Origin: an uncultured Pluralibacter sp.
GTDB lineage: Bacteria; Pseudomonadota; Gammaproteobacteria; Enterobacterales; Enterobacteriaceae
Length of the DNA stretch: 64,000 nucleotides
NCBI RefSeq assembly: GCF_913775985.1
Contig: NZ_CAJYMB010000012.1
Span: 1-64,000, forward strand
Reading direction: 5' to 3'
The notes under the pieces were generated by a model that searched no databases, had not been told where the DNA came from, and saw only the letters and a program-made list of their open reading frames with translations. A program made the position numbers and the translations under genes. Below, one piece after another: positions 3,142 to 16,082 of this stretch. Within the stretch, counting starts at the first letter, position 1; each line of letters starts with the position of its first letter.

Positions 3142-3864
3142 TTAACGTGTTTTCGCCGGTAGCGAAACCCACTGCGACTTAAAGAAATACCCCTGAATGG
3201 CGTCGGCCGCACCGTGCAGGCAGGTGACATAATCGTCAATAGTTTCAACTCCCTCGACGACGACCTGACGCCCGATATCGCGATAGCGCCGCACTACCGC
3301 TGCCAGACCCTCGTTTGAAAGCGCCAGCTTTTTGAATAGCGCGGCGTCTATTTTCACCGCGTCAAAATCGATACCTGACCGGCACCAGTACAAAAGATGC
3401 TCAGGATAGAGATCGTCCAGCCAGACGCGATAACCGGTATTGATAAGCCGCTTCACGTGGATAAATATCTGCTGCTGCTCTCCGGCGCCGAGTTGCAGCA
3501 GGCTACCGGGGTCCTGAATTTCGATAATAATCCGCCGCTGGTGCGCCTGCTCCGCCAGCTGCCGGATAAACGCAGCATCGGCGAGCATACTTACCGATAA
3601 ATTGAGCGTGTAACTGCCGTCCAGGCGCAGGATCCTCGCCATTTGCTGCAGAAAAAGCCGCTCTTTTCTCTCCAGCGACATGTCGCGAAAGAAAGCGTCT
3701 GCGGAGCCCGCCTGAGAGACCTCGCTCAGCACTTCCTGCACCCGCCGAAGCGGGGTGCGTAAAAAATGGATAACCTCGAGCCTGATTCCGGTAATGGCAT
3801 TTTCATGCATCCCGCGAGCACGTTTTGCGGTGAGGTTCGCTGACCTGTTGATACTGTTTATCAT
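3142..3864 (-). CDS. Degenerate EAL-domain protein at the end of the fimbrial operon
   Basis: 240 residues, a stand-alone EAL-type domain with no GGDEF, PAS or membrane segment. Recognisable motifs are EVI in place of EAL, LNLS, EIQD in place of xxTE, WLDDLYP in place of DDFG, DAVKID, VVEGVET and IQGYFF. Several metal or substrate positions are changed, so phosphodiesterase activity is uncertain. Size and degeneracy recall YdiV/RflP, which binds FlhDC. MrkJ, an active EAL enzyme next to type 3 fimbrial genes, is the alternative model. It lies 33 bases after the last pilin gene on the same strand, so it is probably co-transcribed. That is the position MrpJ or PapX hold in P-like operons, where they link fimbriation to motility. 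Confidence 0.82.
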   Translation of the reverse strand: MINSINRSANLTAKRARGMHENAITGIRLEVIHFLRTPLRRVQEVLSEVSQAGSADAFFRDMSLERKERLFLQQMARILRLDGSYTLNLSVSMLADAAFIRQLAEQAHQRRIIIEIQDPGSLLQLGAGEQQQIFIHVKRLINTGYRVWLDDLYPEHLLYWCRSGIDFDAVKIDAALFKKLALSNEGLAAVVRRYRDIGRQVVVEGVETIDDYVTCLHGAADAIQGYFFKSQWVSLPAKTR

Positions 3865-3897
3865 CTTATTTTCTGTAAATGAGAGCCGGAAGCGGCA

Positions 3898-4434
3898 TTA
3901 TTGATAGCTCAGCGTCCACGTGCCGCTGGCGCTAAATTCGCCATATTTTAGTGACTTATTCGCCACCGCATCGGGCTCGGCCTCCACCCACGCCTGAAAT
4001 TCCAGAGCCATATCGCCCTTCTGAACCTGCTGCGCCGTGGTGCTTTGGTTGAGGTGTACCGGCGTGCCGTCATCTTCGCTGATGCCAATGGCAATTCCGC
4101 TGGCCCCGCTGCCGCTGCCGATAGCCAGATGATCCGGCAGTGCCGTATCTTCGGTGCCGCTGAAGGTGACCGCGACGCTGCGGAAAACGTCCGGGTTACA
4201 GTCAGCGAGCTGGATTTTGAATTTTTTAGCGCTGCTGCGCCCGGAGAGATAAAGATCTTTTGTCGCAATTTGACCAAAATCGACGACGATCCTGTCACCT
4301 CCCGGCGGCAGGCTGCAGGTCAGCGCCACAACGGTGCCGTGAAAATGCATATCCCCGCCGATAAGCCGGGTTTCTGCCGGTACCGCCGCGCTGACGAGAG
4401 CAGCGCCGAAAGCCAGCAAACATGGCCATTTCAT
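3898..4434 (-). CDS. Minor fimbrial subunit (distal, after the adhesin)
   Basis: 178 residues from ATG 4434, which has a GAGGA site. An in-frame ATG 99 bases upstream would lie inside the adhesin gene and bury the signal peptide. Signal peptide MKWPCLLAFGAALVSAAVPA, then an Ig-like pilin fold with the usual disulfide pair (LTCSLPP and LADCNPD), and a C-terminal strand ending GTWTLSYQ with the penultimate tyrosine of chaperone-binding subunits. Probably a tip or adaptor subunit. Its start is ten bases from the adhesin stop codon. Confidence 0.85.
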   Translation of the reverse strand: MKWPCLLAFGAALVSAAVPAETRLIGGDMHFHGTVVALTCSLPPGGDRIVVDFGQIATKDLYLSGRSSAKKFKIQLADCNPDVFRSVAVTFSGTEDTALPDHLAIGSGSGASGIAIGISEDDGTPVHLNQSTTAQQVQKGDMALEFQAWVEAEPDAVANKSLKYGEFSASGTWTLSYQ

Positions 4435-4444
4435 TGTCTTGTCC

Positions 4445-5503
4445 TCACTGAAATTGCGCCACAACCGTCGCCGAGGCTTCAAACTCGCCCTCTTTGACGC
4501 TGCCGGCTCCGGGATTCGCCACCGGTGCCGCAACCAGCCCCCAGTCGCCCTGATTCTGATAAAAGTTGTTCATTTGATAGAACGTATTGGGCACCACGGG
4601 ATTACCGCGATCGTCCTTAAGCTGGATCCCCAGATCGCCGCGTTTCTGCCCGTTGCTCAGCGTACCCAGCAGCTGGTTGTTGAAATCTGCGGTACCGGAT
4701 GCCGTGCTGGTCTGTACGCCAAGCTGAATATTCATCGCGCCGCTGCTAAAGCTGCCTCCTTCGCACTGCACGTGGATAGGAATACTCTGGCTGTAGCTGG
4801 CACCGTTAAGTTTGTTGGCAGAGGCAGGGAGATTGCCGAACTCAACGGTAATGCGCTGCCCGCGGTTGAACGTGCATTTATCCGGGACGGTGATCACGCC
4901 AGAGCTTATCAGCACGCGGGAAATAGGCGTTGTCGGCGCACCTCCGCCACCCAGGTCTCCCGCTAAATCCAGCAGCGCCTGGCCGGTAATATTGATACCG
5001 TTAATAATGGGTTTAGTAACCACAAAGACCACTTTCCCCTTTGAGCCGCTCTCAATGGTGTCGGCCCTGACGACGCCGTGATTACGTGAAGTAGAGCAAG
5101 AGTATTTGCGGTACTGATTGGAAAAACTGGTAAAAGGTGCCCTGATGTATTTATTCACTTCACCTGCAACATAAATGGAGACTTCGACGTCAAGATAATC
5201 ATTCAGTTTGAATCGGGTGTTGTCCGATGAGAGTGGCATCGTTGAGAAAGTAGAGTAGTAGATTGCTTCTCGCGGGATATCCCGGTCCGGACAGTGAAAA
5301 TTCACCACGTAATTGCCACCAAGTGCCCAGGTGAAATCAGGCGTGCGCCCGCCGACGTGGTTATCGGCAATATCCAGATTCTGTAGCTCAATATTGTATT
5401 GATGAAGCGAACCTTCAGGCTCTCCTTCTCCCTGCACAAAAGCCAGCACATGAGATGAAAAGCATGCCAGCGCGGCTGCCAGCATCAGCCCAGGCCTTCT
5501 CAT
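4445..5503 (-). CDS. Two-domain fimbrial tip adhesin
   Basis: 352 residues, about twice pilin size: signal peptide (MRRPGLMLAAALACFSSHVLA), an N-terminal lectin-like domain of about 170 residues with no family I can name, and a C-terminal pilin domain from about residue 205 (starting VITVPDKCTFNRGQ, ending TVVAQFQ). That architecture is diagnostic of chaperone-usher tip adhesins such as FimH, PapG or MrkD. It overlaps the preceding subunit gene by four bases (ATGA), so translation is coupled. The receptor cannot be read from the sequence. Confidence 0.85.
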   Translation of the reverse strand: MRRPGLMLAAALACFSSHVLAFVQGEGEPEGSLHQYNIELQNLDIADNHVGGRTPDFTWALGGNYVVNFHCPDRDIPREAIYYSTFSTMPLSSDNTRFKLNDYLDVEVSIYVAGEVNKYIRAPFTSFSNQYRKYSCSTSRNHGVVRADTIESGSKGKVVFVVTKPIINGINITGQALLDLAGDLGGGGAPTTPISRVLISSGVITVPDKCTFNRGQRITVEFGNLPASANKLNGASYSQSIPIHVQCEGGSFSSGAMNIQLGVQTSTASGTADFNNQLLGTLSNGQKRGDLGIQLKDDRGNPVVPNTFYQMNNFYQNQGDWGLVAAPVANPGAGSVKEGEFEASATVVAQFQ

Positions 5504-6105
5504 AAATACTCCAGCTTTATTCTGATCAGCCCGAAGAACGATCCGGCACTCACTTCGCGCCCCGTCGCTTCCAGCGCGGCCTGAAAATGGATGGCATTGT
5601 TGCCGGGCTTCAAAATGAGCATTTGCTCGGTTTGATTGATTGCCAGCAGCCGCCCCTTGTCAGTCAGTACCCTGATCCCGGCGCCTTTCACCCCGCCATA
5701 TATTTTTCCGAGATCCCGGTTCTCCGGCGCACCTTCAGCCATAAGCGTCAGGGATATTCCCTGTTCAACGCTGCGGTAAGCATCCTCAGGGACAGCCCGC
5801 TCCTGGCCGGGAAGATCCCTCAGCAGATGCCCGGATCCTTTCAGGCAGTCATTCAAATTCAAGGTGACCAATACCGGCCTGCTGCGATCGCCCTGCTGAT
5901 GAAAAGCGCGGGCGGAAATATCTCCAAGATCGACAGTTTGATCCCGCGAGGCCATATCCAGCACGCAGGGAGAAACGTACACGCGCCCGTGAAAACGCAC
6001 CTCACCGTATTCTCCTGCCGCAGTTGAAAGATCCTGGCGATTACCATTTGCCAACGCAGAAAATGCGGCGGCTGCCAGCAGTAAAATACAAAGCCTCTTT
6101 TTCAT
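5500..6105 (-). CDS. Minor fimbrial subunit
   Basis: 201 residues: signal peptide MKKRLCILLLAAAAFSALA, pilin fold with cysteines in SPCVLD and NDCLKG, and a terminal strand ending IRIKLEYL with tyrosine penultimate. It lies between the chaperone and adhesin genes, the place of PapJ/K/E/F-type minor subunits, so it probably links rod and tip. The gene begins 20 bases after the chaperone stop and overlaps the adhesin start by four bases. Confidence 0.85.
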   Translation of the reverse strand: MKKRLCILLLAAAAFSALANGNRQDLSTAAGEYGEVRFHGRVYVSPCVLDMASRDQTVDLGDISARAFHQQGDRSRPVLVTLNLNDCLKGSGHLLRDLPGQERAVPEDAYRSVEQGISLTLMAEGAPENRDLGKIYGGVKGAGIRVLTDKGRLLAINQTEQMLILKPGNNAIHFQAALEATGREVSAGSFFGLIRIKLEYL

Positions 6106-6125
6106 TTACGCTTCTCCCATGGCCT

Positions 6126-6902
6126 TTATTTAGGCTGCTGATCCAGCGGCAGCGCGCGGCACGTGCTGCCGCTGCAGCGAAAAATAAGCTCCGGATGGCC
6201 GCCGTAGTCATTGACGTACATCATCGCGAACTCGCTTGCAGCAGCGTCCGTCACCGGGATCTCTTTGGTTGATTTTGGCGGGATCATCACTCCGGGAAAG
6301 GTGGTCAGCCGTCCCCCGCCCTGCGCCTCTGGTTTACGGCTCAGGCCAATGATGGTCACAAAATAGGGCGTCGGATTTTCCACCGACCAGCGGGCGCCCT
6401 GTTTGTGAAATACCAGCTGGTTCTGCCAGACCATGCCGGGCTTTGCAGGGATCACCGCGGTCGGGCGATAAAAAAGCTTGATGCGCGACTGCATCGCCAG
6501 CTGCAGAACGTTAGGCTTGTCCGGCTTTGGCGGAATTTCGCGCACGTTTAAATAAAACAGACTTTCGCGATCTTTCGGCAGCGAAGCGATGTCGCCAGTT
6601 TTGGTCACGCGGGCGATACCTTTCTGCCCGCCGTTGATCCTCTGTAGCGGCGGCAGCACCATTAACGGCGAAGTCACTTTTTCACCGCCGGCATTTTCAA
6701 CCCAGGACTGGGCCAGAAAAGGCGTATCCGGGCTGGTATTGGTTAAGTTAGCGCTCGCAGAACGGTCTTTCTCAGTGATAATCAACCGCGTTCTGTCAAT
6801 GGCGATACCGGCCTGTGCCGGGGCTACTGCCGTAGACAGCAGCACGCCACCAAAGGCGAGCAGCAGCGCGCGCCGGGTAAAAATGCGTTTAGCGTTATTC
6901 AT
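6126..6902 (-). CDS. Periplasmic fimbrial chaperone (PapD family)
   Basis: 258 residues from ATG 6902. The reading frame is open further upstream into the usher gene, but only this start gives a signal peptide (MNNAKRIFTRRALLLAFGGV). Two Ig-like domains: RTRLIITEKD with the conserved arginine of strand A1, then QRINGGQKGIARV and LFYLNVREIPP typical of PapD/FimC. The loop between F1 and G1 strands looks short, so FGS type is more likely than FGL. It caps subunits by donor-strand complementation and delivers them to the usher. It overlaps the usher gene by eight bases. Confidence 0.93.
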   Translation of the reverse strand: MNNAKRIFTRRALLLAFGGVLLSTAVAPAQAGIAIDRTRLIITEKDRSASANLTNTSPDTPFLAQSWVENAGGEKVTSPLMVLPPLQRINGGQKGIARVTKTGDIASLPKDRESLFYLNVREIPPKPDKPNVLQLAMQSRIKLFYRPTAVIPAKPGMVWQNQLVFHKQGARWSVENPTPYFVTIIGLSRKPEAQGGGRLTTFPGVMIPPKSTKEIPVTDAAASEFAMMYVNDYGGHPELIFRCSGSTCRALPLDQQPK

Positions 6903-9399
6903 CTGTAGATTCACTTCGTTGTGGTAATGACTGACAGGGCAGCAAGGTTTTGCCCTGAGGTTTAATCGAGCCCGGAACACGGGCCCGGCACTGCGCGCGG
7001 CCGCTCCAGGTAATCGAGAGCTGCTCATCAGGCTTCACGCCTTCAATCCAGGCTTCTCCGCCATCCATCACCATGCCGACGTTGACGCCGCTGGCGTTCA
7101 GTATCTCGGCGCCAAATGGCGGCACCGCGCCGTTAGCCAGCCGCAAAACCGCCATCATTTTCTGGCCCCTGGCCACGGCAAAGTGCTGGTAGCCAATGGC
7201 CCCCTCGGTCAGGGTGCTGGTGGCAATCGCGCTGGTGGCCGCAATGTCTTCATCCATTGCATCCACGTCGATGCGGGTATCAAAGCTGTGATAGCTCACA
7301 ATGTCCGGCACCACCGCAATACCGAATCGGTTTGAGTGGGCCATTTCACCGTTGAGCGGCACGTCAGCCACGCCATCGGTGTCGACCATCATTCGGGCGG
7401 TGTTCATTGATGCCTGGCTATTGTGCAGAGCGGCCCCGTAGCGCGTTGCGGTAAAGCCACCGCGTACCGTGCCGCCGAGCGAGAGATAGCGCTGCTGTTG
7501 CCAGTTCACGTTAGACTCCAGCTCCGCCAGCGAACTGCGGTGCTTGTAGTAGCCGTCAAATGCGGCCTTCCCTTCTCCAGAATCCCCGCCGCGCACGCGC
7601 CAGCTGTTATTGCTGTCGCGGTTATCGGAATAAGAAACCATCTGGCTGGTGCGATCGCCGCTGTCCTGCAGCTGGTAGTCCATTGAACGCCCGTCGCCCC
7701 AGGGCACCGAGATAGAGAACGAGAGGCTGTCGTCACGCCGCCCCCGGTACTCCGAGCGGTACGCCGATAGGTTGGCGCTGATATTCTCAATACCGGCAAA
7801 GGAAAAGCCGTGTCCTACGGAAAGCCCGTAACGATTCTGGGACTGGCGATCCCAGTAGTTCTGGTGGGTGTAGGTTAAATAGAGCGTGGTTGCCCGTCCG
7901 GGCTGGTCGGCAAAAAAGGTTTTATTGGCGGTGACGGTATACATCTCCCGCTCGCGGCCGACGTGGCTGTCATCGGCATACTGCTCTTCGAGAAACTGTG
8001 AAAAAGTGCGGTAGCTGCGTTGTGAAAAGCGATAACCGGCAAAGCTGATAGTGCTGTGATAATCATCGAAGGTTTTGGCATAGCTGAGCTTAAAAGAGCG
8101 CCCGGTTTGCTGCGCCTGATTTTTTACCCGACTCATGGCCTGAGTTACGTCAGCCGAGACGGCACCGAGCCAGCTCAAATCCCGGCCAATCCCCAGCGAT
8201 CCGGCATTGTAGCGGCGACCCGCAATAAAGGCGCCGCCGTACAGCGACCAGGTATTGCTTATCCCCCAGGAAAAATCACCGCTGTAAAAGGCGGGTCCTT
8301 CGACGTTATGGCTATAGCGCGAAGGCCGGCCAAACGCATTGTTAAAGCGCAGGTAGCCCGGGCGCGTAAGATAGGGAATATCTGCGGTATTGACCTGGAA
8401 GGTCTGAACGCTGCCGTCCTGCTCTTCGACGCGAACATCAAGCTGGCCCCTTACCGAACTGCGCAAATCCTCAATATTGAACGGGCCTGCGGGCACCGTC
8501 GTCTGATAGATAACGCGGCCCTGCTGGCTGACGGTAACTTTAGCGTTGCTCTTGGCAATACCGTGAACCTGAGGCGCATACCCCTGCAAATTAGGCGGCA
8601 GCATCCGCTCGTCGCTGGCATAGTTGACGCCGGTAAAGCGCACCGAATCAAAAATCTGAGAATTGAGGTATATCTCCCCCAGCGTCAGCTTTGCCGCCCG
8701 CATCGGCAAAGGCAGCCAGGCATAGAACTGATCCCAGTTAAAGTGCGTCCCTTCTCCACCAGATCCAGCATTAAGCTGGTACTGGCCGCGAAAGCGCCAG
8801 GCGCCGAGGTTAAAGCCCGACTGGCCGTAGCCCGACAGAGACTGATAGTGGCCGCTCTCCTGAAGATAGTGGGTAGCTTGCCCGGACAGGTTGTAATCAA
8901 AAATAGCCCCGTTAACGCCGTTATCCCAGCGCTCGGGCGGCGTCCAGTCCGGATCGGAATAGGTCATCCACGCCTGCGGAAGGGTTATGTCCAGCGTGCC
9001 GGCCGCATTATTAAATGCCACGCCGGGAAGAGGTGAAACATCGAGGCAGTCCGGGGCGATGGTGCGAACTTGCGCCAGCGCCTCTTTTTTTAGCGCCAGC
9101 AAAGAAACCTGATGCGTCGTCAGGCAAACCAGGGTGGCGTGAGGATTTTTAGGGTCAGCCACATAGTCTATTTGCTGCTGGGGCAGCGACTGTCCGTTGA
9201 CGCGCACGTCCAACAGATAACGGCCAGGCGCGACATAGTTGCCCTGAGAAAAGCGTTGCAGGTCGACATTGTGCCTGTCGCTGGCATCGAGCACATCCGT
9301 GTTAAAGTCAACGGCATCATCGGCAACCACCTGCTGCGCGATGATAATCAGGGAAATGAGTACCGCTATTTTTTTAATATTTGTTTTGAGCGTTTTCAT
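6895..9399 (-). CDS. Outer membrane fimbrial usher (PapC/FimD family)
   Basis: 834 residues from ATG 9399: signal peptide (MKTLKTNIKKIAVLISLIII), N-terminal chaperone-binding domain starting VDFNTDVLD, 24-strand beta barrel with the plug region, and C-terminal domains ending RARVPGSIKPQGKTLLPCQS, with the usual usher cysteine pair. A GTG two codons upstream (9405) is better spaced from AAAGG and is an alternative start. Usher before chaperone, and after two pilin genes, matches the papA-papH-papC-papD (pi-clade) order rather than fim order. Confidence 0.95.
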   Translation of the reverse strand: MKTLKTNIKKIAVLISLIIIAQQVVADDAVDFNTDVLDASDRHNVDLQRFSQGNYVAPGRYLLDVRVNGQSLPQQQIDYVADPKNPHATLVCLTTHQVSLLALKKEALAQVRTIAPDCLDVSPLPGVAFNNAAGTLDITLPQAWMTYSDPDWTPPERWDNGVNGAIFDYNLSGQATHYLQESGHYQSLSGYGQSGFNLGAWRFRGQYQLNAGSGGEGTHFNWDQFYAWLPLPMRAAKLTLGEIYLNSQIFDSVRFTGVNYASDERMLPPNLQGYAPQVHGIAKSNAKVTVSQQGRVIYQTTVPAGPFNIEDLRSSVRGQLDVRVEEQDGSVQTFQVNTADIPYLTRPGYLRFNNAFGRPSRYSHNVEGPAFYSGDFSWGISNTWSLYGGAFIAGRRYNAGSLGIGRDLSWLGAVSADVTQAMSRVKNQAQQTGRSFKLSYAKTFDDYHSTISFAGYRFSQRSYRTFSQFLEEQYADDSHVGREREMYTVTANKTFFADQPGRATTLYLTYTHQNYWDRQSQNRYGLSVGHGFSFAGIENISANLSAYRSEYRGRRDDSLSFSISVPWGDGRSMDYQLQDSGDRTSQMVSYSDNRDSNNSWRVRGGDSGEGKAAFDGYYKHRSSLAELESNVNWQQQRYLSLGGTVRGGFTATRYGAALHNSQASMNTARMMVDTDGVADVPLNGEMAHSNRFGIAVVPDIVSYHSFDTRIDVDAMDEDIAATSAIATSTLTEGAIGYQHFAVARGQKMMAVLRLANGAVPPFGAEILNASGVNVGMVMDGGEAWIEGVKPDEQLSITWSGRAQCRARVPGSIKPQGKTLLPCQSLPQRSESTDE

Positions 9400-9439
9400 T
9401 TTCACTGATAGACCTTTATTTTCCTGAAACCTGCAGCAC

Positions 9440-10003
9440 TCAGAGATAATTAACAACAAAATGTACAGCGGCGTTGAATTCACCGGATCCGACATGCCCG
9501 TCGAGCGCAATAAGCCACGCGGTAAAGCGGAGCGTGTTTCTTCCGGGATTTAAAATGTAATCAGGTGAGGGCTTGCCCAGCTCAATAATATTTCCCTGGC
9601 GATCGAATATCTCGATCGCTAAATTCTCAAGCTTATTATCGCTTGATTGCACGCTTAAAAACTCATCACCCAGCGGCGCCGCTGCGCCAGAGAAAGTAAT
9701 TGAGGCACTATGAAAAATATCATCGGGATGTTCAGCATCACCCAAAGAACAGCCTAATAAATGGATACTGAAATTATGTGCCGACACCTTTCCTGTATCA
9801 GCAGAGACATCTCTGGCAGAAATATCATTAAACTCTACCAGCATGGATTGATCGTGGGGATCGACATAGCAAGCGGCCTCAACGATTTCACCGCGTAAAT
9901 ATACATTACCGGGTGTATTGCTGATTTTATCGGTGCTGGCTACCGCGGTTAACAGCGGTATAAAGACCAATATCAACAGTAGAGCGCGCCATTCGAGCAT
10001 CAC
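9440..10003 (-). CDS. Second fimbrial subunit (PapH-position)
   Basis: 187 residues: signal peptide (MMLEWRALLLILVFIPLL), pilin fold with cysteines in EAACYVDP and LLGCSLG, C-terminus VHFVVNYL with penultimate tyrosine. By position, between the major pilin and the usher, it corresponds to PapH, the subunit that ends rod growth and anchors the fimbria. That role is inferred from gene order only. Codon usage is more AT-rich than the core genes. Confidence 0.8.
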   Translation of the reverse strand: MMLEWRALLLILVFIPLLTAVASTDKISNTPGNVYLRGEIVEAACYVDPHDQSMLVEFNDISARDVSADTGKVSAHNFSIHLLGCSLGDAEHPDDIFHSASITFSGAAAPLGDEFLSVQSSDNKLENLAIEIFDRQGNIIELGKPSPDYILNPGRNTLRFTAWLIALDGHVGSGEFNAAVHFVVNYL

Positions 10004-10028
10004 CGGTATCCTTAAGGAGTTTCCGTAT

Positions 10029-10069
10029 ATACCCTAAATAATTCGAGCTGCTTGAAGTATGACGGGTAT
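10029..10069. repeat. Imperfect palindromic repeat with ATACCC/GGGTAT ends
   Basis: A 41-base imperfect inverted repeat whose arms begin ATACCC and end GGGTAT; inner bases (ATAATTCGAG against TTGAAGTAT) pair partly. The end sequences resemble a short intergenic element common in enteric genomes. It sits between the first two fimbrial genes next to a separate perfect hairpin. The element identity is from memory. Confidence 0.45.
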
Positions 10070-10075
10070 AAAATG

Positions 10076-10099
10076 AGCAGGCGTATTTCTACGCCTGCT
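10076..10099 (-). terminator. Perfect hairpin after the major pilin gene (probable attenuator)
   Basis: AGCAGGCGTA, a four-base loop, TACGCCTGCT: a perfect ten-base stem eight bases past the major pilin stop codon. On the minus strand it is followed only by CATTTTATAC, a weak U tract, so partial termination or protection of the pilin mRNA from decay is likely. That would give much more major pilin than downstream proteins, as after papA. Confidence 0.65.
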
Positions 10100-10107
10100 T
10101 AATCGTA

Positions 10108-10677
10108 TTACTGGTAATCAATCTGGAAGTTGATCGTAGACTGGAAAGCACCCGGGGTAACTTCGCCGTTAGCTTTATCCGCCTGCAGATAAGCAACGAA
10201 GTCGATATTAGTATTGCCATCAGTCAGTTTTACCGGAGAAGTGGCCTGGCCCCATTTCACATCCTGATCGCCGCTGTCAATCAGGCCGATACCTGCACCC
10301 TTCGCCGTATCAGAGACAATTGCTGCCAGGCTGCTATTGTCTACATCCTGCGTAGCCGGCGTATAGGTTACCACTGCGCTGGTCGCAACCGTGGTATCAC
10401 AGCCCTGCAGCACGATTTTTTCATGACGGCTGCCGGCACGCTGGTTATCTTTCAGCTGCGAAGTGGGAATTTCGCCGAAGTTCACTTTAACCGGGCTGGA
10501 TTCTGGAGCCAGGCCGCAGGCAGAGTTAACCAGTGAACCGGTGAATTCAATTTTACCGTTGGTTGGGGTAACGGTGGTTGGCGTGGTGCCAGTGCCGTCT
10601 TCAGCATTGGCAAAATTAGCAGTAAAAGCCATTCCGGCGATGACAGCGCAGCTGACAGCGATACTTTTCATTTTCAT
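10108..10677 (-). CDS. Major fimbrial subunit (pilin)
   Basis: 189 residues: signal peptide cleaved after NFANA, a Thr/Pro-rich mature N-terminus (the donor strand), pilin fold with cysteines in NSACGLAP and LQGCDTT, and C-terminus FQIDYQ with penultimate tyrosine. First gene of the operon and followed by a hairpin, both expected of the rod subunit. Starts at 10677 and 10671 (MKMKS or MKS) are both possible. Divergent from the membrane-bound regulator across 610 AT-rich bases. Confidence 0.9.
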   Translation of the reverse strand: MKMKSIAVSCAVIAGMAFTANFANAEDGTGTTPTTVTPTNGKIEFTGSLVNSACGLAPESSPVKVNFGEIPTSQLKDNQRAGSRHEKIVLQGCDTTVATSAVVTYTPATQDVDNSSLAAIVSDTAKGAGIGLIDSGDQDVKWGQATSPVKLTDGNTNIDFVAYLQADKANGEVTPGAFQSTINFQIDYQ

Positions 10678-11287
10678 AATAGTGTAGACCTAATGTATTG
10701 GATTAATGTCAGCAGTGCTCTTGGGATCTATTTCAGCAGAAACAATCCCCGGATATTTCCGGCAATATGCGTTCGTATTTAAATCAGACTGAATGTTGCC
10801 TCCATCTTCAAGTTTGACTTCAGCAACAGCCCTGCACTGCATCGACGACATATGTTACTCAAGCGTCAGGGAGATACAACGTAAAACCGTGTCTAAAACA
10901 AATTCAGTACGTCATTCTAAATTCACCATTTATATTTATGATAAATACCAATCTCTTTCTGCATTTATAGCCATGGTACAGAGTTAAAATCTATTTATTT
11001 ATATTTTTACAGAATATTTAACCATACAAAAGCAAACTATTTAGACAAAAACACTTATGAAATAGGATTTAATCGATTATTTATTCAACACCAGATCGAT
11101 TAACATACTGTATTATAATGAGAAAATGTAAAACCCATTAACGGTTAATTCCATCTCATTGATTAATAACAACTTAGATGCACTAGCCGACATCCGCACT
11201 TTTTGAAATCGACATCTATTTTCTTTTATCTTTGATATAGTATGCTTAGCGTAATTACTCTTGATTTATTGCATTAAGGAAGCAATC
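10678..11287. promoter_or_regulatory. AT-rich divergent control region of the fimbrial locus
   Basis: 610 bases without a convincing gene. It contains an inverted repeat CCGGA-TATT-TCCGG at 10749-10762 in the probable pilin leader, a direct repeat ATCGATTA at 11072-11079 and 11095-11102 (23 bases apart, about two helical turns; the first copy lies inside the palindrome TAATCGATTA), and a perfect palindrome ATTAAC-G-GTTAAT at 11137-11149. These are candidate operators for the adjacent winged-helix regulator or for H-NS antagonism. No invertible-element ends and no recombinase gene were seen. Confidence 0.5.
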
Positions 11288-12082
11288 GTGTTTTCTCACA
11301 TTCCCCAAAACAATATAAAATCGATAATTATCGATGACAAAATAATATTTAGACCCCAAAAGAACACACTTCAGGATATACAGATAGGAAAGAGCAGCAT
11401 GCTTAATAACATCGCCTCGCAGCTTTTCCTGTATCTGTTACAAAATGGCACTAAGATATCCACGCGCGAGGAAATTCTGCTCAACGTTTTTCAGCATAAC
11501 GGCTCGCGGGCGACTGATGCGAATCTCAACCAGCATATCTCATCCATTCGCAAGGCCATCACCGCCATAGACCATTCAGCGGATCTGATTGTTACGACAC
11601 CGCGCGTCGGTTTTCATATTGACGAAAAGAATATTCAGTTTCATCTGAACCAGGAAGTTGATACAAAAGACGTTAGCCCTCCAAAACTGCTATCCTCGGT
11701 AAAACGCTCACGAAAAAACCAGCGAATATTGATCGCTGCCACTGCACTATTCACGCTTTCTACTACGGCTGTTGTAGGTGCGCTATCATACGACGCACAT
11801 CGAATTCCGATGGATGAAGTATCCATCTTGCACACCTCAAAATTTGAGCAGTGCACGATACATATTCTGGGAAATAAAAAAGCAGATCGCGTAAGTGCGG
11901 AAAAAGCGCAGGCTATTTTTCAACAGCTCGTAATAAAACCTGATTGTTCATCAGAAAAAGACATTTACATCAATATCTGGCAAAGCAACTATAAGCTTCT
12001 CGATTTAAAATTCAGCGCCGAGTGCGGCTATCTTCAGGGTTTTTACCACTGCATTTCGAAATATCAATATATCGAGAATTAA
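11288..12082 (+). CDS. Membrane-bound winged-helix regulator (ToxR/CadC/PsaE type)
   Basis: 264 residues from GTG 11288, preceded by AAGGA with seven-base spacing; the frame stays open upstream to a TTG without a site. An OmpR-type winged helix occupies about residues 25-112 (with NLNQHISSIRKAI recognition helix and TTPRVGFHI wing), one membrane segment lies at about 146-168, and a periplasmic domain of about 95 residues contains four cysteines. This is the ToxR/TcpP/CadC/PsaE plan: periplasmic sensing controls DNA binding from the membrane. It is divergent from the pilin gene and one base from its partner gene. The likely target is the fimbrial operon; the signal is unknown. Confidence 0.8.
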   Translation: MFSHIPQNNIKSIIIDDKIIFRPQKNTLQDIQIGKSSMLNNIASQLFLYLLQNGTKISTREEILLNVFQHNGSRATDANLNQHISSIRKAITAIDHSADLIVTTPRVGFHIDEKNIQFHLNQEVDTKDVSPPKLLSSVKRSRKNQRILIAATALFTLSTTAVVGALSYDAHRIPMDEVSILHTSKFEQCTIHILGNKKADRVSAEKAQAIFQQLVIKPDCSSEKDIYINIWQSNYKLLDLKFSAECGYLQGFYHCISKYQYIEN

Positions 12083-12083
12083 C

Positions 12084-12596
12084 ATGTTTAAAAAAGAAAA
12101 ACTTGTGCCTTTCTTGTGGCCTTCACTGATTGTCGCCGGTGGTATCCTGGCTATCATGCTTATGATTTCTGCGGACGAAAAGAAAACAAACGATATCGAT
12201 TTTTCCTGTACTTCCGAGCTTGAATCCTCGATTAATATTCGCAATGATGAGTGGGATTTGAAAGGGGTCGCGATCATCACCGGCTATCGAAACAATAAAA
12301 TTTCACTGCTGCTGAGAGGCAAACTCGAACACGATAAACAACAGCTATCGGTAGACAGAAAGTTATACTTTGATTATTACTCTCCCGGCAAAAGCAATCA
12401 CGGTTTCTTTATCACTAATTTTAAGGGCCATAAAAAAAAGCCGGATGATGATGCCCCTGACAATATCGACTATATCTTCTTCGATGCTTATCAGAACATC
12501 GACAAGGTCAATATCATTAAGCGTATTGATGAAAGAATGGTTATCATTGGCGATACATTCTCGCCCGTACTCATTTGTGTGATTAACAACAATTGA
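12084..12596 (+). CDS. Small single-pass membrane partner of the regulator (ToxS/PsaF-like position)
   Basis: 170 residues: short Lys-rich cytoplasmic start, one membrane segment at about 9-29, then a periplasmic region with only two cysteines (42 and 165) that could form one disulfide. I do not recognise the sequence. The architecture and its place one base after the winged-helix gene match ToxR/ToxS, TcpP/TcpH and PsaE/PsaF pairs, where the small partner stabilises or activates the regulator. The pairing is inferred from layout, not from homology. Confidence 0.6.
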   Translation: MFKKEKLVPFLWPSLIVAGGILAIMLMISADEKKTNDIDFSCTSELESSINIRNDEWDLKGVAIITGYRNNKISLLLRGKLEHDKQQLSVDRKLYFDYYSPGKSNHGFFITNFKGHKKKPDDDAPDNIDYIFFDAYQNIDKVNIIKRIDERMVIIGDTFSPVLICVINNN

Positions 12597-14278: not shown

Positions 14279-15900
14279 CTATCCCTGACCGCCCGTGGCG
14301 CGCAGCAGCACCTCGTTTTGCACGCGCGCATCAAGCACCATGTCGCCACGCGGATCGAGCATCATCCGGCACCACGCCTGCGCCAGCGGCGGCGAGCTGT
14401 AGCGCAAAACCTGCATCCCGGTCGCCAGTAGCCACAGCCCATGAGTAATCTCGCGCCCCTGCGCTTCTGAAGGCTTGCGCAACCGCTGCTGCATCTGGCG
14501 CCACGCGCGATCGAAGTGGCGATCCACGCCTTTTACTTCCTGATATTCCGCATGCAGCACGGCCATCACCTCCGGCTGTTTTGCCAGCACTCTCAGCACG
14601 TCCAGGCACATGATATTTCCCGATCCTTCCCAGATACTGTTGACCGGCATCTCGCGATAAAGTCGCGGCAGCTCGCTCTCCTCGCAGTAGCCGATACCGC
14701 CGAGCACCTCCATCGCTTCCGCCACAAACGGGATACCCGCCTTGCAGACGGAAAATTTCGCGGCGGGCGTAAGCAGGCGCGCCCGAAGCACCTCTTCGCG
14801 AGAGCTGCGGCTGTCCCAGGCCCGGGCCAGGCGAAACAGCGCCGCGGTTTGCCCTTCCAGCTGCAGCGCCATGCGGCTCAGCACCTGGCGCATCAGCGGC
14901 TGCTCGACCAGGGTTTTGCCAAACGCCTGCCGCTGCCAGGCGTGGTACAGCGCCACGGACAGCGCCCGGCGCATCAGGCCATGGCTGCCCAGCGCGCAGT
15001 CAAAACGCGTCAGGCCGCCCATTTTCAGGATCTGGCGAATGCCCTCGCCCTCCTCCCCCAGCAGCCAGCCGCTGGCGCCGGTCAGCTCGGCCTCGCTGCT
15101 GGCATTAGCGCGGTTGCCGAGCTTGTCTTTAAGCCGCTCAAGATGCACGCCGTTGCGCTTCCCGTCGGGCAAAAAGCGGGGAACAAAAAAGCAGGACAGG
15201 CCGCCTTTCGCCTGCCCAGCACCAGGTGCGCATCGCTCTGGGGTACGGAGAAAAACCATTTGTGCCCCACCAGCTGATAGAAACCGCCGTCTACCTTCTC
15301 CGCGCGGGTGGTATTGCTGAACACGTCCGATCCCCCCTGCTTTTCGGTCATTCCCATGCCGATAAGCAGGCCGCGCTTCTGGCCGCCGGGGAGAAGGTGC
15401 GCATCGTAGCGGTCGCTCATCAGCGGCGTCAGCCAGTCGGAAAAAGGCGCCGGCATCAGTGCCTGCAGCAGCGGCGTAGCCGCCGAGGTCATGGTCACCG
15501 GGCACAGCGATCCCGGCTCTACCTGCGCGTGCAGCACAAAGCGCGCCGCGCGGGCAACAAAAGCGCCGGCAAGGGCCTGCGGCTCCCACGCCAGATTATG
15601 CACCCGGTTAGCGCACAGCCCCTGCATCAGCAGGTGCCAGGCCGGATGAAAGCGCACGTCGTCCAGCCGCGCTCCGCGGGCATCGTAGCGCAGCAGCTCG
15701 GGCGGGTTGACGTTGGCGAGCCGCCCGAGCTCCAGCGACTCTGCGGTTCCCAGCTGCTGGCCGATGCTTGCCAGCAGATCGGTATCCCAACCCGCGCCCT
15801 CGCGCTGCACGGCTTCGCGCAGTGCGGTATCGGAAAGGAAAAGATTACTGTTGCCGAGCGGCATCGGCTGGTTGAAGACGGTGTGGGTTTGCCAGGTCAC
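14279..15900 (-). pseudogene. aidB: aidB, split by a single-base deletion
   Basis: AidB is an FAD-binding acyl-CoA dehydrogenase homologue of the adaptive response to alkylation. Homology to the E. coli protein is continuous but changes frame: the first part (from GTG 15900 with AGGGGG upstream) is correct up to QSDAHLVL, and the rest continues as AKGGLSCFFVPRFLPDG in another frame. The junction is at about 15213-15220, where one base is missing from an expected CTG-GCG-CAG-GCG. The 1622-base span is one short of 541 codons. The frame entered after the shift ends at 15082. All other parts look intact, so the lesion is recent or a sequencing error. Confidence 0.88.
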
Positions 15901-16082
15901 GGTGTTTCCCCCCTGTAGATTTTGCGGTAAGTATGGGCCGCGGAGGGCAACTTCGCCCGTGCAACGGTGCCGAATCACGGGCTGCGTCACCTTCGTGAAT
16001 ACCATCACAGGGTTCAGAATTTAAAATTTCATCATCGCGAATGTGTGGAATAATTTATTTTTTGGTTAACGGATTGCGAAAG

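Follow-up and report, generated by a model that had tools for sequence, protein, structure and literature searches.

A pi-class fimbrial operon of Pluralibacter beside a divergent ToxR/FidL-like regulator pair, with predicted PglL-type transferase genes in related operons

Control of fimbriae by a membrane-bound winged-helix regulator and its small membrane partner has been described for the Psa and Myf fimbriae of Yersinia, which are run by PsaE/PsaF and MyfE/MyfF (PMC10269533, table 1), and a 2022 review regards PsaE/PsaF as an unusual way of running fimbriae. For the co-component systems MarT/FidL, GrvA/FidL, VtrA/VtrC and ToxR/ToxS the named targets are MisL, the locus of enterocyte effacement (LEE), type III secretion systems and toxin genes (PMC9214523), and the words fimbria, usher, Klebsiella and Citrobacter do not occur in the main text of that paper. 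Here, we describe a fimbrial operon and a divergent regulator pair at positions 3142-12596 of a 64,000-nucleotide stretch of DNA from an uncultured Pluralibacter sp. (contig NZ_CAJYMB010000012.1; the whole stretch is hereafter called the window). We consider it likely that a complete pi-class chaperone-usher operon stands here beside a co-component pair that switches it on from the membrane upon an outside signal. Since such regulator pairs are already known to run the Psa and Myf fimbriae, the operon is a variant and not a new kind, and the view of an earlier note on this DNA, which did not recognise the combination as a described system, goes too far. As described, these loci and that of the window each use a winged-helix regulator in the membrane, together with a small membrane protein, to serve a chaperone-usher fimbria; the Psa locus, however, comprises five genes with one subunit among their products, whereas the window encodes a pi-class pilus with an adhesin and an EAL gene.

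All ten open reading frames (ORFs) of the region are intact, with no breaks, eight of them on the minus strand (3142-10677) and the other two, for regulator and partner, beyond a 583-bp gap on the plus strand (Table 1). The P-like gene content read by the earlier note (pilin, PapH-position pilin, usher, chaperone, minor pilin, adhesin, minor pilin and EAL gene) was confirmed by the ORFs and by Pfam, the five subunit genes matching the Fimbrial model with 69.5, 68, 47.4, 71.1 and 61.5 bits. We looked for this arrangement in 295 Enterobacteriaceae genomes and in a scan of 84,980 species. Among the matches listed, seven other genomes of the 295 carried the regulator at E <1e-80, and the operon was found in all seven; an adhesin with at least 65% identity occurred, again among the matches listed, in exactly the eight genomes having the regulator. 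Seven more operon loci came from the scan, in Citrobacter gillenii, C. braakii, C. werkmanii, C. youngae, Citrobacter sp. R56, C. portucalensis and Raoultella planticola, and once duplicates were merged (G206 with L082, G168 with L078, G251 with L083) 12 distinct genomes remained, including that of the window (the first tier). The regulator and its partner were present in 12/12, divergent and adjoining the pilin gene, and the EAL gene in 11/12, not being found in G241. The relatives' whole operons kept the same order with 41-79% identity gene by gene, and this recurrence in other genomes argues against a chance assembly of genes. In G074, which belongs to the genus of the window, 46-79% identity extended over most of the length of the window frames. 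An usher DNA match covering 80% was found in none of 5,426 E. coli genomes, and the literature on Pluralibacter fimbriae held nothing on this operon by title among the matches listed.

The operon lies between rpsF and yjfP in the window and in G074, and beside dnaQ-rnhA in eight Citrobacter-type genomes; the operons of G241 and R. planticola are at neither place, with flanks that differ from each other when compared by eye. It therefore occupies three or four chromosomal sites.

The usher identifies the operon as pi-class (P-type), judged by sequence. We built a quick tree of 61 ushers (SH-aLRT only, midpoint root), covering 8 of the 12 operon genomes, in which 57 rows, including those of the window, PapC and two PRK15284-type ushers, were split with a support of 100, across long branches, from FimD and three other ushers of the window's own genome. 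Because the usher groups with PapC and the PRK15284-type ushers and not with FimD, and because the usher gene precedes the chaperone gene and the pilin and PapH-position pilin genes come first, we place the operon in the pi class, with its usher outside the Pap branch. The gene order usher to chaperone, with the PapH-position pilin second, is also found in the pap genes as annotated in E. coli, and the likeness to P fimbriae extends to the minor pilins that follow. Three differences were seen: a PapI/PapB-like gene recognised by Pfam is missing from the divergent gap of the window, one more pilin gene follows the adhesin gene (papG is the last gene of pap), and the usher falls outside the PapC branch. 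Membership in the Pap type was rejected on the first and last of these. Two frames of 64 and 74 aa in or at the gap had no Pfam match, and two others measured 53 and 34 aa.

The ten first-tier ushers (those of the 8 genomes plus two database ushers) formed one clade with an SH-aLRT of 100, whose nearest kin are the database ushers P0032-P0034, 64-67% identical; within the tree, a path of about 0.005 separates the G074 usher from its neighbour, the usher of Pluralibacter gergoviae, which makes Pluralibacter the probable genus of the window genome. Against NCBIfam, the window usher scored best with PRK15284 (781 bits), PRK15273 (706 bits) and PRK15255, which is StdB (629 bits), below all three cut-offs (972, 1371 and 1289 bits, respectively), and the best models for the chaperone were StfD, SteC and StdC. 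We take PRK15284 to be StfC and PRK15273 to be SteB. The best models of usher and chaperone thus make the Salmonella Stf, Ste and Std systems the nearest named likeness; however, the ushers of G009 and G233, with about 1,800 bits against PRK15284, stand on another branch than the window usher. Stf, Ste and Std are pi fimbriae according to PMC3373541. Membership in the StfC, SteB or StdB types was rejected on the curated cut-offs, and the label 'SteB of Salmonella' of database usher P0045 was not used as a type, since P0045 groups with the second-tier ushers. A distinct usher clade travelling with this regulator pair, the pattern named by the earlier note as support for a new family, was borne out by the pair's presence in 12/12 genomes and by the clade covering 8 of them and two database ushers.

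The regulator combines a CadC/ToxR-like winged helix, one transmembrane (TM) helix (by hydropathy and model) and a predicted periplasmic domain with four invariant cysteines, and the gene of a TM-anchored partner lies adjacent downstream. The most hydrophobic stretch starts near residue 156 in the regulator and near residue 10 in the partner, which has two invariant cysteines. The regulator frame opens with TTG at 11261, GTG at 11288 being the inferred start, and the VIA list for the regulator covers residues 17-124 only. No Pfam match to the partner was obtained at E 0.01, and the local FidL_like model (PF15941.10) gave no match in the window; PF15941.12 was precomputed on 8/8 partner homologs, one of them 99% identical. 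On these features, the pair is assigned to the ToxR/ToxS-VtrA/VtrC-MarT/FidL co-component type, with which it shares the domain plan and the adjacent genes; the partner, with a cysteine pair near its two ends, may also be barrel-like, as in those systems. The earlier attribution to the ToxR-ToxS/PsaE-PsaF kind agrees with this domain plan, the TM stretches and the adjacent partner.

Such pairs need not serve their neighbours, because GrvA/FidL is described as acting on LEE-dependent adherence (PMC9214523). The pair could thus mainly control other genes and have moved together with fimbrial genes that are run by other inputs. Consistent with this, in 13 second-tier loci about 16-20 kb, occupied by other genes, separate a regulator start from that of the usher (G002 has a second, nearer regulator). 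We regard this alternative as improbable, given the divergent position next to the pilin gene in 12/12 first-tier genomes at three or four chromosomal sites and the crowding of ToxR-like genes around ushers. Of the 150 ToxR-like places listed for the 295 genomes, 31 had a listed usher no more than 10 kb away, where 0.88 would be expected, and for a distance of 25 kb the figures were 45 and 2.2. Since these expectations rest on uniform placement in a 4.8-Mb genome and the query sequences were taken from fimbrial loci, they are to be read as orders of magnitude only. Listed ushers are the matches listed to PRK15284, over and under its cut-off, with the window usher added, and three ushers were scored per genome. 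Of the 20 second-tier loci, 13 had a regulator in the stretch, each adjoined by a TM-bearing frame of partner size, and seven had none.

One of the second-tier loci, L058:3151-18034, carries after its fimbrial operon LuxR and DsbA-like genes, a frame without Pfam match, and C39-peptidase ABC exporter, ketosynthase and HD-domain genes; further on, by eye, come MacA/MacB/TolC-like, dehydratase-like and ketoreductase-like genes and then a ToxR/FidL-like pair. Twelve other second-tier loci have a similar spacing. Perhaps a fatty-acyl or peptide product is made and exported beside the pilus there.

Returning to the reading in which the pair controls the operon, the partner's predicted barrel would pair with the periplasmic domain of the regulator and may bind a small ligand resembling a lipid or bile compound. 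Binding of the winged helix to the 583-bp divergent region would then activate the pilin promoter. Short conserved blocks were seen in this region in an alignment with eight relatives. Export and polymerisation of the subunits would fall to chaperone and usher; the two-domain adhesin would occupy the tip, and the PapH-position pilin would terminate growth. The roles given here to the regulator, the EAL protein and the relatives' transferase are inferred ones.

Table 1. Features of the fimbrial locus in the window
Feature	Position	Strand	Remarks
EAL-domain protein, 240 aa	3142..3864	-	Pfam EAL 60.9 bits; His in EAL-glutamate column
Minor pilin	3898..4434	-	Pfam Fimbrial; frame extends to 4533, ATG at 4434 inferred; orthologs
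Two-domain tip-adhesin-like protein, 352 aa	4445..5503	-	pilin domain, residues 201-352
Minor pilin	5500..6105	-	Pfam Fimbrial
PapD-type chaperone	6126..6902	-	PapD_N/PapD_C; frame extends to 7028, start inferred
Outer-membrane usher, pi class	6895..9399	-	PapC_N, Usher 508 bits, PapC_C; frame extends to 9510, start inferred
PapH-position pilin	9440..10003	-	Pfam Fimbrial
Major pilin (by position)	10108..10677	-	Pfam Fimbrial
A+T-rich divergent intergenic region, 583 bp	10678..11260	.	inferred regulator target
ToxR/MarT-like regulator: winged helix, one TM helix, periplasmic domain	11288..12082	+	Trans_reg_C 36.6 bits
Small partner, FidL/VtrC-like: TM helix and predicted periplasmic beta barrel	12084..12596	+	1 bp past regulator stop

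An EAL gene closing a fimbrial operon is also known from Klebsiella fim and fim2, where fimK ends an operon for type 1 fimbriae and FimK has an N-terminal helix-turn-helix (HTH) domain; the likeness to the window lies in the position of the gene. In the window, the Pfam EAL match starts at profile position 71. Aligned with PdeH of E. coli K-12, all four family rows (4/4) show a histidine in the column of the PdeH glutamate, which we take to be the EAL glutamate; the Asp pair, Lys, EGVE and Gln are conserved. The protein appears to be a degenerate EAL protein lacking the catalytic EAL glutamate, a thin indication from one alignment in a divergent region. With a histidine at this column, we did not keep the idea of an active cyclic di-GMP (c-di-GMP) phosphodiesterase; the protein may instead be a c-di-GMP-binding or protein-binding modulator. 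Two other EAL genes, 27-28% identical to that of the window, adjoin a transferase gene in fimbrial operons (L166:7377-7985 in G227 and L169:12405-13016 in G126).

The feature of most interest is a transferase gene in the operons of the relatives, where the earlier note could not see it. In 10 of the 12 genomes, a frame of 555-559 aa starts 1 bp past the last pilin gene; it is not in the operons of the window or G074, where pilin and EAL genes are 33 and 36 bp apart, respectively. Two scanned transferases (L040 and L084) matched Wzy_C and Wzy_C_2, and PglL_A was over the cut-off in L040 and at 21.9 bits (below 25) in L084. The domains point to a PglL-type O-oligosaccharyltransferase, predicted to attach sugars to proteins and lying beside its presumed target. 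The window operon would have lost, or never gained, this gene of the Citrobacter and Raoultella forms. The window genome has a transferase match of its own on contig C96 (L137:4098-5984), 23 bp past the final subunit gene in a different pi-type operon. According to PMC3643930, type IV pilin genes are the neighbours of 21 of 31 PglL homologs, whereas the relatives' transferase lies beside chaperone-usher genes. The main text of that paper contains none of the words fimbria, usher and chaperone, and no description of O-glycosylation of chaperone-usher pili was found there or among the literature matches listed. A PDB sequence search with the transferase gave 0 matches, and no literature linking STM0341 with stb was found.

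The transferase query had matches in 43 of the 295 genomes. Of 53 listed places, 50 were used, the others being later fragments of counted places (two in G162, one in G227); 30 of these 50 were no more than 10 kb from a listed usher, compared with an expectation of 0.37 (uniform placement, an order of magnitude). For the best 38 matches, an usher was within about 10 kb in 34, 28 of them by list and six in stretches that were read. Nine stretches were read for the other ten (L071 and L157-L164): ushers lay within 10 kb in L071, L157, L158, L159, L162 (28% identical only) and L163 (on the other strand), no usher was present in 19 kb of L160 and L161, and the usher of L164 was 14 kb away; that of G146 was 12 kb away by list. 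As an observation apart, L157-L176 hold PglL-like transferase genes beside pi-type fimbrial operons in many Enterobacteriaceae.

These counts bear on the alternative that the operon is an ordinary pi fimbria, its regulators one more PsaE/PsaF-like case and the relatives' transferase a passenger with, for example, a role in O-antigen ligation. PsaE/PsaF and MyfE/MyfF are indeed already known, the transferase family includes the WaaL ligases (PMC3643930), and the window operon lacks the gene. However, H400, E404 and P406 are said to be conserved in PglL and not in WaaL (same source), and H-x3-E-x-P was present in 32 of 34 distinct transferase frames, as was HPHN or H-x-HN in 30 of 34 (string matches at any position). 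Together with the 34 of 38 best matches beside ushers, this PglL-like spacing makes the alternative as a whole rather unlikely, though less so than the other alternatives that we weighed.

A Thr/Pro-rich N-terminal stretch of the major pilin (window 10561-10602) occurs in the window and G074 and is absent from three aligned Citrobacter and Raoultella pilins. The two genomes with this pilin are also the two without the transferase gene.

Concerning the surroundings, the operon is flanked by rplI, rpsF and yjfY on one side and by yjfP, bsmA, yjfN and aidB on the other, and no mobile gene was seen among the listed window frames, in line with the clean junctions described by the earlier note. That note also held that the operon replaces the ula genes. 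The yjfP-yjfY interval of K-12 does hold ulaR, ulaG and ulaA-F, but replacement was too strong a word. Besides that of the window, 31 genomes in a set of 60 matched yjfP; in 20 family genomes hand-picked (not at random) from these, eight had ula in the rpsF-yjfP interval and 12 had neither ula nor fimbriae, with the genes 0.2-1.9 kb apart. Displacement is one of two possible histories; an empty site could equally well have been the start, because 12 of the 20 relatives have neither. That the operon directly displaced ula in an ancestor of the genus is unlikely on these intervals, even though K-12 and eight relatives carry ula there and, of the three EIIC-GAT genes of the window genome, one has no match to UlaA of K-12 and the other two are only 29-31% identical to it. 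Displacement as a shown fact was rejected on the 12 relatives and on the location of the operon elsewhere in Citrobacter and Raoultella. In L195 (G002:C7, 8042-15270), about 7 kb of extra DNA lies between yjfY and rpsF beside full ula matches, a second sign that the interval is variable.

The neighbouring aidB matches as two overlapping pieces in different frames (14279-15589 and 15082-16008, overlapping at window 15082-15589), so that either aidB is frameshifted or the assembly is faulty here. This and the draft state of the assembly (160 contigs) could suggest a locus in decay that no longer functions, but with all ten frames open and matched in G074 over most of their length, we consider this extremely improbable.

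We tentatively propose, at somewhat less than even confidence, that the window operon is the transferase-less form of a glyco-fimbria family, that is, of pi pili with their own PglL-type transferase that are widespread in Enterobacteriaceae and often under ToxR/FidL-like switches. If true, subunit glycosylation of chaperone-usher fimbriae and bile- or lipid-sensing control would be general features of the class and no rarities. Membrane-bound co-component control of fimbriae may be common, because so many of the listed ToxR-like places (31/150) have a listed usher no more than 10 kb away. With the PglL-type genes in these operons, mass spectrometry of Citrobacter would allow a direct test of whether chaperone-usher pili are O-glycosylated.

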